Positions 54,583-56,409 of a stretch of 64,000 nucleotides of DNA are shown here, piece by piece. The notes under the pieces were generated by a model. The model saw nothing but the letters and a program-made list of their open reading frames with translations. It had not been told where the DNA came from and searched no databases. The stretch spans positions 1,240,001 through 1,304,000 of the forward strand of contig NZ_CP099391.1 in assembly GCF_023913515.1 (NCBI RefSeq). Direction: 5' to 3'. Position 1 is the first letter of the stretch, and the number at the start of each line of letters is the position of its first letter. The stretch comes from Natronococcus sp. CG52 (lineage in GTDB: Archaea; Halobacteriota; Halobacteria; Halobacteriales; Natrialbaceae). The position numbers were made by a program, and so were the translations under genes.

Positions 54583-54666
54583 GGTGGGGTGGCAGAGCGG
54601 CCTAACGCGCCTGCCTTGAGAGCAGGTGGCTGTCAAGCCTCATGGGTTCAAATCCCATCCCCACCG
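54583..54666 (+). tRNA. tRNA-Ser (anticodon UGA)
   Basis: 84 nt. The acceptor GGTGGGG (54583-54589) pairs with CCCCACC (54659-54665), with discriminator G. The anticodon stem CCTGC (54610-54614) pairs with GCAGG (54622-54626); loop CTTGAGA gives anticodon TGA (54617-54619), so it reads UCA serine codons. A long variable arm follows (class II), then the T-arm with GGTTCAAATCC. CCA is not encoded. Upstream TAACCCTTTTT could be its promoter box. Confidence 0.9.
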
Positions 54667-54754
54667 TTGCTGTCGCGAACAATTTCGTGAGCGACAGCGA
54701 GGTCGATGGATTTGAATCAGGGAGTGAAGGGACCAACGCGAGCGGAACGACCGT

Positions 54755-54776
54755 GGTTCAAATCCCGTCCCCACCG
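54755..54776. repeat. tRNA-Ser 3'-end copy 2
   Basis: It matches the tRNA 3' end (54645-54666) at 21 of 22 positions (one A to G change in the T-stem), starting GGTTCAAATCCC. A candidate attachment-site scar. Confidence 0.6.
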
Positions 54777-54797
54777 TTTTCTCACGGGAGTTCAGGT

Positions 54798-54819
54798 GGT
54801 TCAAATCCCATCCCCACCA
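54798..54819. repeat. tRNA-Ser 3'-end copy 3
   Basis: It matches the tRNA 3' end at 21 of 22 positions (last base A instead of G). It lies 43 nt from copy 2. Confidence 0.6.
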
Positions 54820-54956
54820 CATCTGCGACGAACGGTACGTGAGGAGCGAGGCGTGAAGGACGGATCTGAATTAGACCAGTCGCGCGCAGCGAGAGCGCGG
54901 TCGCGCTGCGACCGCGATTGCGAGCGGTGAAACCGTGATCGAGCGCGTCTGGGGGT

Positions 54957-54978
54957 GGTTCAAATCCCATCCCCGCCG
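54957..54978. repeat. tRNA-Ser 3'-end copy 4
   Basis: It matches the tRNA 3' end at 21 of 22 positions (one A to G near the end, CCCCGCCG). Confidence 0.6.
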
Positions 54979-55071: not shown

Positions 55072-56409
55072 ATGCCAAACCAAACGAATACCCGGAGGCG
55101 GTTTCTCGCACTCTCCGGAGCAGCGACGGTTGCAGGCCTTGCCGGCTGTATGGGGACCGATTCGGACGCGTCGGAGAACGGCGGTAACGGCTCGTCGGAC
55201 GAAAACGGCGACGGAAACGAGTCGACCAGCTACGGACCGCCGGAACTCCAGGTCGAAACCGAGTACGATAGTCGCGAGGAGTTCGAACAGCCCGGCGAGC
55301 AGTTCGACAACTTCGAAGATCTCGATCCGTGGGAGGTCGTTCAGGGATCTGCGGAAGCAGACGAAGACGTCGTCTTCGACGGCTCCCAGAGCCTCAGGCT
55401 CAGCGCCGAGGACAGTGAAAACGTCGTCGTCGAGCGGCGGATCGACACGACGGACATGAGTGACCTCGAGCTCTCGATGGCCGTCCGGACGTCCACGCCC
55501 TCCAATATCGCGATCGACATTCGGCTCATCGACATTTACGGCGGCTACGCCCACCACCAGCTTCGGTCGGTCACCTACCGTGATTCCGATCCCGGTTGGT
55601 TCCGAACGAACCCCGGTGTCTTCGAGGAGAGTTCGATGCCCCTCGAGCGAGACGTGGTCGAAGAGATCCAGATCATCGTCTACAACACCGACGACGAAGC
55701 GGAGGTGTGGGTCGACGATATGCGAATCCACGAGAAGCCCGAGAAGGGCTACGTCGTGCTCTGCTGGGACGACGGCGTCGAGGACTTCTACGACACGGCA
55801 AGCCCGCTCCACGACGAGTACGGCGTCAACGCGGTCCAGGCTGCCGTTCGACAGTGGACGCGAAATCAGCGCGACGGGATCATGACGGTCGCTCAGCTCA
55901 AAGAGCGCCAGGAGGCCGGCGACCAGATCGTCGCCCACGGTACCCACACGCAGTTCGCGGAGATGGACGAAGCGGATCTCAGGGACGCACTGCGGCGGGA
56001 CAAGAACTGGGCCGTCCAGAACGAATTCGAAGGCGGACACTACATCGTTTATCCCCACAACAGCTTCGACCAGACGGTTCTCGACGTCGTCTCGGACTAC
56101 TACTACGCGGGCGGGTTCAACCAGTCCGGCAACGTCAACCTCACCGGCGTCCACGGCTTCGATCCGCTAGCACTGCCGCGGACGATCGGCCACGACCTCG
56201 ATATCTCGCTTCGAGCTGTCGACCTCGCCGCGAAGCACCGACAGTGTACGATCCTGAACTTCCACGCCTTCGACCAGGACAACACGCTGGACGAGGGCGA
56301 GTACGAACAGCTGCTCGAGCACATCCAGAGCAGGGGCGACGACGTCGAGGTCATCGACTTCGACGACCTCTGGACGATGCGTCGCGAGGGACACCGACCG
56401 GACAACTGA
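55072..56409 (+). CDS. secreted lipoprotein, polysaccharide deacetylase-like
   Basis: This 445-residue protein has a Tat-type signal (RRRFLALSGAATVAGLAGC, lipobox LAGC near residue 25) and a Ser/Gly/Asn/Asp-rich linker. A beta-rich middle domain (about 70-225) resembles a carbohydrate-binding module. The C-terminal domain has VVLCWDDGVEDFYDT (Asp-Asp-Gly metal/base motif) and QIVAHGTHTQFAEM, which replaces the usual H[S/T]xxxH motif with His spaced differently. It probably acts on cell-surface polysaccharide; the altered second motif leaves activity uncertain. Confidence 0.75.
   Translation: MPNQTNTRRRFLALSGAATVAGLAGCMGTDSDASENGGNGSSDENGDGNESTSYGPPELQVETEYDSREEFEQPGEQFDNFEDLDPWEVVQGSAEADEDVVFDGSQSLRLSAEDSENVVVERRIDTTDMSDLELSMAVRTSTPSNIAIDIRLIDIYGGYAHHQLRSVTYRDSDPGWFRTNPGVFEESSMPLERDVVEEIQIIVYNTDDEAEVWVDDMRIHEKPEKGYVVLCWDDGVEDFYDTASPLHDEYGVNAVQAAVRQWTRNQRDGIMTVAQLKERQEAGDQIVAHGTHTQFAEMDEADLRDALRRDKNWAVQNEFEGGHYIVYPHNSFDQTVLDVVSDYYYAGGFNQSGNVNLTGVHGFDPLALPRTIGHDLDISLRAVDLAAKHRQCTILNFHAFDQDNTLDEGEYEQLLEHIQSRGDDVEVIDFDDLWTMRREGHRPDN

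Follow-up and report, generated by a model that had tools for sequence, protein, structure and literature searches.

The closest precedent for the locus described here, true on a small scale, is the tyrT operon of Escherichia coli. There, repeats known as rttR (RtT) follow a tRNA gene in tandem, and every repeat closes with a copy of that tRNA's 3' end. The rtT RNA is released during tRNA processing in E. coli. Hairpin units that stand in arrays, fold strand-specifically and exchange modules are also found among the REP/BIME elements and in integron attC arrays.

In haloarchaea, short non-coding palindromic repeats termed PATEs and SMRs occur in Haloquadratum walsbyi, the SMRs being about 110 bp long and making no target duplications (PMC3119063). 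In the sections of that paper considered here, these repeats target PATEs, IS605 elements and scattered sites, and are not described as lying at tRNA ends or as matched to tRNAs. In Haloferax gibbonsii LR2-5, partial tRNA remnants were noted beside full tRNAs (PMC7921747); the remarks concerned, as far as the excerpts of that source go, mention neither a structure nor spacers in common, an inverted T arm or an occurrence throughout the class. We found no description of the family reported below in the portions covered of open-licence papers, including PMC3119063, PMC3402447, PMC7921747, PMC3623002 and PMC7230728, and the family of tRNA-trailing hairpin cassettes is apparently undescribed.

Results

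Tail copies behind tRNA-Ser(UGA)

All positions refer to the window, a stretch of 64,000 nucleotides of the Natronococcus sp. CG52 genome, and all features lie on its forward strand. The tRNA-Ser(UGA) gene occupies 54583 to 54666 (ARAGORN; Rfam RF00005, 52.3 bits), and its last 22 nt (54645 to 54666) form the source tail, W0. A mismatch scan of the window confirmed the observation of the initial annotation that this tail is repeated at 54755, 54798 and 54957, each time with exactly one mismatch (21/22). The forward strand held four matches at up to 2 mismatches, the next-best match having 6, and the reverse strand held none at that threshold. In the whole 4.74-Mb genome, the 21-nt core of the tail was present only at the four places of the ladder (up to 2 mismatches); the matching repeats elsewhere that had been envisaged did not appear. 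These match counts and the 6 mismatches of the next-best site exclude a chance origin of the four copies.

The ladder consists of two units and a remnant. The first unit (54667 to 54776) is complete and starts with a hairpin, h1 (54667 to 54705), in which sequence and fold reveal a stem, a GCGAAC..GTGAGC tandem-GA tip and the returning stem. It is followed by W' (54706 to 54716), recognized from inverted repeats as a partial inverted copy of the T-stem and T-loop of the tRNA that is one base shorter; its inverted match to its own tRNA scored 9.5, which 0 of 500 shuffles reached. A second hairpin, h2 (54717 to 54754), was assigned by module comparison and folding to the beta type (CAGGGAG...CGACCGTGG), which also occurs behind other tRNAs, and the unit closes with the tail copy W1 (54755 to 54776), identified like the other tail copies by mismatch count against the tRNA tail. 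The next segment (54777 to 54819) is internally deleted: by eye, an h1-like start resembling the h1 of genome G008 is fused to an h2 end in a remnant at 54777 to 54797, which precedes tail copy W2 (54798 to 54819). The second, more diverged unit (54820 to 54978) was delimited by sequence and fold into an h1 (54820 to 54861), a degenerate W' (GGATCTGAAT; 54862 to 54871) and an h2 of the TTAGACCAGTCGCGCGCAG...GTCTGG type with an enlarged stem (54872 to 54956), and ends in tail copy W3 (54957 to 54978). The degenerate related sequence that had been noticed between the copies was also confirmed; in it, parts of the T arm recur in inverted orientation (GGATTTGAATCAGGG / CCGTGGTTCAAATCC). The gene at 55072, described earlier as encoding a secreted surface-polysaccharide enzyme, does carry a Pfam Polysacc_deac_1 domain; secretion of its product is predicted from the N-terminus only.

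Tail copies behind other tRNAs

We then examined all 47 tRNA genes matched by the tRNA model in the Natronococcus sp. CG52 genome, counting as an own-tail copy the last 18 nt of a tRNA at up to 4 mismatches within 320 nt downstream. Own-tail copies, and with them a tandem tail plan like that of tyrT (a working category), were found behind 24 of the 47 tRNAs, compared with 2.1% when the tails of other tRNAs were used as a control and 1/47 when the upstream side was searched. Two Natronococcus congeners gave 19/48 and 20/49. The tail-copy pattern is not specific to tRNA-Ser(UGA): similar tails do occur at other tRNA genes of the genome, and the counts come close to the multi-copy tail after most tRNA genes that the initial annotation had named as speaking against its own explanation. 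About half of the tRNAs had no recognizable unit. Behind two tRNAs of Natronococcus sp. CG52 that lack a unit, tRNA-Ser(gct) (L052) and tRNA-Leu(cag) (L064), a same-strand open reading frame lies closely 3'; by eye, these frames are apparently ribosomal protein genes.

Despite the common plan, membership in the RtT family was rejected. The RtT covariance model (Rfam RF00391) had no match in the Natronococcus sp. CG52 genome, and among 14 control genomes it found one operon in one genome, that of E. coli. The tail copies behind E. coli tyrV end at +178, +356 and +534, with 3/22 mismatches each. The E. coli repeats differ from the haloarchaeal family in their 178-nt period and their sequence; the haloarchaeal units, by contrast, are spread through a whole class, stand behind most isoacceptors and combine two hairpins with an inverted T arm.

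Cassette architecture and match to the resident tRNA

The units share one plan, in which a tail W is followed by hairpin h1, W', hairpin h2 and a new tail W; the cassette from h1 to the new W is mostly 95 to 150 nt long. W is the resident tRNA copied from the T-loop through the 3' end, and W' corresponds, in reverse complement, to nt 54 to 65 of that tRNA, the T-loop with the 3' strand of the T-stem. Hairpin h1 often has a GCGAAC...GTGAGC tip. Hairpin h2 belongs to a few families common to unrelated tRNAs, namely alpha (AGACCGAGGTTCTGCG...), beta, gamma (AGAGAAGTCGCAGC...) and others.

Among 163 non-redundant units, the inverted match of W' to nt 54 to 65 of its own tRNA averaged 9.45, against 7.49 when units and tRNAs were permuted (2000 permutations, highest permuted mean 7.80). 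The acceptor positions 66 to 73 were not matched in W' of the same units (4.78 versus 4.69 permuted). An earlier test with a badly placed 13-nt probe had given a weak signal, with 15/47 at up to 3 mismatches against a null of 9%. In the 38 cases in which the tail copy differed from the tRNA in nt 54 to 65, W' fitted the tRNA better in 32 and the copy better in 3, and there was no sign of compensation between W' and the tail copy. The hairpins behaved differently from each other in three genomes: where h1 had a good match, the best was most often the same tRNA in another genome (10/27), whereas the best good match of h2 was another tRNA in 30 of 39 units.

Several variants of the plan were observed. 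After an alpha hairpin, the tail copy often reads TTCACAATCC instead of TTCAAATCC (L069, L095, L127, L153, L185 and others), with one base inserted in its T-loop; the insertion recurs across genera. At tRNA-Pro(ggg) of genomes G003 and G008 the plan is shorter: the repeated parts are limited to GGTCCCA, the 3'-terminal 7 nt of the tRNA, and an inverted TGGGA, with beta-like hairpins between them. In Halomicrococcus gelatinilyticus, tRNA-Arg(ccg) (L098) is followed by three consecutive units with alternating h2 types.

Integrases and inserts at tRNA ends

The initial annotation had suggested repeated integration and loss, or tandem duplication, as the origin of the ladder. On the first of these readings, integrative elements would have entered the tRNA 3' end and left repeatedly, each time depositing a tail copy. 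A direct copy of the tRNA 3' end is what such scars would show, and is present here. Haloarchaeal attachment sites are standardly tRNA 3' ends, as for the Haloferax gibbonsii elements in the passages of PMC7921747 that treat them. The part of the proposal that held is that tail copies are gained and lost, as congeners differ by whole units at the same tRNA. The spacers, however, are not random element ends; they are standard two-hairpin modules common to many tRNAs and genera, and integration is not expected to yield inverted T-arm copies. Nor did the expected elements appear. Nine Natronococcus genomes had no large insert between the tail copies at tRNA-Ser. The Natronococcus sp. CG52 genome has seven tyrosine-integrase domains; the 24 unit-bearing tRNAs have none of them within 10 kb, compared with 2 of the 23 tRNAs without units that do, and the nearest to tRNA-Ser(UGA) is 78 kb away.

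Two loci fit the proposal better. In Halovivax sp. KZCA124 (L175), an insert of about 3.4 kb separates two tRNA-Phe ends, each of which bears a unit. The insert has the N-terminal part of an integrase (Pfam Phage_int_SAM_1); the integrase looks broken into two frames, of which the second matched no Pfam family. At tRNA-Arg(ccg) of H. gelatinilyticus, a further tail copy follows after a 2.7-kb gap. In L175, both tRNA-Phe ends carry an alpha unit, which suggests that the attachment site of the element comprised the tRNA end together with the unit; since the unit was duplicated along with the tRNA end, it pre-dated the element, and integration here duplicates units rather than making them. True integrations at unit-bearing sites exist but are rare. 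Given the modular spacers, the attachment-scar reading is largely refuted and integration footprints are unlikely as the origin of the ladder; with the lack of a nearby integrase added, we give the whole scar scenario very little credence. In genome G007 (L011), an IS1341/TnpB-like reading frame was seen by eye directly after the tRNA-Ser array.

Beside the arrays, general tyrosine-integrase domains gave no match. In their arrayed hairpin units, strand-specific folding and modular exchange, the cassettes may be likened to REP/BIME and attC, but no enzyme of a known kind and no cassette genes were seen with them, and their tail is copied from the resident tRNA.

Distribution among genomes

Of 69 Halobacteria genomes sampled, 61 had a generic W'-h2-W pattern, while a reversed-pattern control gave 0; outside the class, the generic pattern was in 0 of 53 genomes of the phylum. 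A pattern for the alpha h2, built without any tRNA sequence, matched 88 of 125 genomes of the taxonomic family. In a scan of named genomes it gave at least 124 matches, and those listed comprised 90 haloarchaeal and 34 bacterial ones. A same-strand tRNA stood within 450 nt upstream of 85 of the 90 haloarchaeal matches listed, covering 13 amino-acid types, compared with 0 of the 34 bacterial ones. The five haloarchaeal exceptions among the matches listed were L121, which is 462 nt from tRNA-Phe, L189 and L209, both at the margin of the available sequence, the second match of L175, and L203. Among the loci of the family scan, 28 of 31 alpha matches had a tRNA; the others were L066 (the same place as L175), L091 and L085, the last of which looks coding. 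PATEs and SMRs, to which the cassettes are similar as short non-coding palindromic repeats of haloarchaea in the passages of PMC3119063 concerned, were compared by description; their dispersed insertion was not found for the alpha unit among the matches listed.

Units were also present in Haloferax larsenii (L185) and H. elongans (L187), where the upstream DNA is shared (96%) and h2 is identical, while h1 and the following sequence differ; this would fit an exchange as well as independent arrivals. Virus-borne units were considered and rejected: the alpha pattern occurred in 5 viral contigs and the generic pattern in 65, and the contexts in contigs with a G+C content above 50% all looked unrelated. 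In phage records, no halovirus matched the unit patterns among the matches listed. A plasmid search returned one matching replicon, of Natronorubrum bangense, which itself bears a tRNA-Gly. An unrelated palindromic repeat, GATTATGAGGTTCTGCG..GCAGGTTCTCATAATAT, was noticed in several contigs of Clostridiales and Lachnospiraceae metagenome-assembled genomes (L103, L114, L119, L120, L129, L142, L144 and L146).

Turnover of units

Within the genus, whole units are present or absent at orthologous tRNAs, and are probably gained and lost while the tRNA is left intact. Behind tRNA-Leu(caa) there is one unit in Natronococcus sp. CG52 and none in G008, with the 43 nt after the tail shared, and behind tRNA-Ala(cgc) there is one unit in G003 and none in G008, with flanks matching from the first base. 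A similar tRNA-Leu(caa) unit occurs in Natronosalvus (L172), so G008 may have lost its unit rather than never having had one; none of the comparisons gave a clean gain. Several seemingly empty sites at orthologous tRNAs contain decayed units. In the tRNA-Ser arrays, G001, G003, G002 and G006 have h1 in common, while h2 is alpha in G001 and G003 and beta in G002 and G006. The copy nearest to the tRNA is best preserved: in 67 arrays with at least two copies, the first averaged 0.78 mismatches and the last 2.03 (P = 9e-5), 41 arrays favoring the first copy and 9 the last.

Such free variation of arrays, the alternation of inverted and direct copies, and internally deleted units such as 54777 to 54797 are what would be expected if the copies were passive by-products of slipped replication or foldback synthesis at tRNA genes, made without selection. 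Replication slippage, however, does not lead to discrete h1 and h2 module families across a class, nor to strand-specific tandem-GA tips and compensatory changes (described below), and we regard a purely passive origin as improbable.

Folding of the sense strand

The folded strand is the tRNA-sense strand. Once near-duplicates had been removed from an initial 159, 153 units were left, and in 133 of them the sense strand had a lower minimum free energy than the antisense strand; the sense strands contained 186 tandem GA/GA internal loops, the antisense strands 1. Control stretches 600 nt downstream (n = 156) had no strand asymmetry (P = 0.92). When the first 80 of the 163 units were set against mononucleotide shuffles, z scores were -2.34 for sense and -1.92 for antisense (P = 0.0019); purine skew accounts for part of the asymmetry.

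Base changes supported the helices. In 104 alpha contexts, pair l1-r1 was CG in 78 and TA in 21, and pair l4-r4 was GC in 81 and TA in 12; swaps were counted outside the invariant core, which is fixed by the search pattern and thus gives no evidence. In an alignment of 16 sequences, 7 pairs had changes on both sides, with 25 such cells against 7.7 in shuffles, and pairing stood at 96.1%, against 23 to 47% when slid. An Rfam scan of the window and 16 unit-bearing loci returned no family other than tRNA above the gathering score, and a known Rfam structured RNA was rejected since only tRNA matches were obtained at the tRNA-Ser locus and the 16 loci. Readings of the hairpins as kink-turns, box C/D or H/ACA motifs were dropped, as none was apparent on visual inspection.

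Folding does not separate RNA from single-stranded DNA as the folded species, because DNA folding parameters also favored the tRNA-sense strand. At alpha pair l7-r8 (104 contexts), TG occurred 48 times, CG 36 times and CA once, far below the others; around GCGAAC hairpins, G.U exceeded A.C by 11 to 4, numbers too small to decide. RNA would be the likelier of the two.

The cassettes might be RNA regulators that benefit the host and are kept by selection on this function; as part of the pre-tRNA trailer they could, for instance, control 3' processing or be released as small RNAs. The compensatory changes, the G.U preference and a sense-strand fold conserved across the class would suit such a role; the alpha units listed are always downstream, in the direction of tRNA transcription, and rttR RNA behind tyrV in E. 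coli is a precedent. The variable presence among orthologous tRNAs of congeners, the same h2 types serving unrelated tRNAs, the decay of distal copies and the lack of a non-tRNA Rfam family at the 16 unit-bearing loci count against this role, which we consider rather doubtful. A TTTT run follows within 12 nt of the tRNA end at 24 of 62 unit-bearing tRNAs and at 15 of 82 that lack units; transcription could stop there, ahead of the unit, which counts against the trailer reading.

On the other hand, the units may be selfish single-stranded-DNA hairpins, like REP, the IS200/IS605-related PATEs and attC, with a trans-acting enzyme that would recognize the folded top strand and insert at the T-loop, W' serving as a target-matching guide. 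The strand-specific folding with DNA parameters, the polarity from the tRNA outward, the sharing of h2 types between different tRNAs and the swap of h2 between relatives with a common h1 are consistent with this proposal. It is at odds with the near absence, among the matches listed, of alpha units away from a tRNA, and with the excess of G.U over A.C at some pairs, a preference typical of RNA but also permissible in single-stranded DNA. No matching enzyme or autonomous element came to notice. Taken as a whole, with enzyme and guide, the proposal seems to us somewhat improbable.

Discussion

We conclude that the ladder behind tRNA-Ser(UGA) is probably a short array of cassettes, structured repeats whose family is found behind tRNA genes throughout the class Halobacteria. 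The existence of a class-wide family of structured tRNA-trailer repeat cassettes is itself well supported.

How the cassettes may act and spread can be outlined. W' can pair in two ways: across h1 with the T arm of the tRNA itself, or across h2 with the tail copy that follows. The two pairings compete for W', and the two helices are mutually exclusive. The tail copy may be a decoy that keeps W' off the real tRNA. The folded species would be the 3' trailer of the pre-tRNA or, alternatively, a single-stranded DNA form. We infer that units are added next to the tRNA, in a copying step in which the tail is duplicated, and that older units decay outward or are deleted by recombination between tails. 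Tentatively, the cassettes can be pictured as mobile hairpins that home to tRNA genes and are re-tailored to each host tRNA on entry, with the T arm copied inverted, the 3' end copied directly and W' acting as a base-pairing guide, the arrays growing from the tRNA outward with a folded single strand, of RNA or DNA, as the intermediate. A repeat that is mainly selfish or neutral accounts for the data no less well than one that serves the host.

If these conclusions are right, about half of the tRNA genes in whole archaeal genera are followed by a folded trailer element that matches the tRNA and is overlooked in annotation or recorded there as "partial tRNA," and such elements would have to be distinguished from true attachment sites in provirus mapping. 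A cassette that rewrites its own flanks to fit each host tRNA would, if true, represent a new targeting principle. The finding poses the question of whether the archaeal pre-tRNA 3' trailer serves as a regulated structure or as the home of a repeat that propagates itself, and the units in the Haloferax species make this question addressable in a genetically tractable genus.
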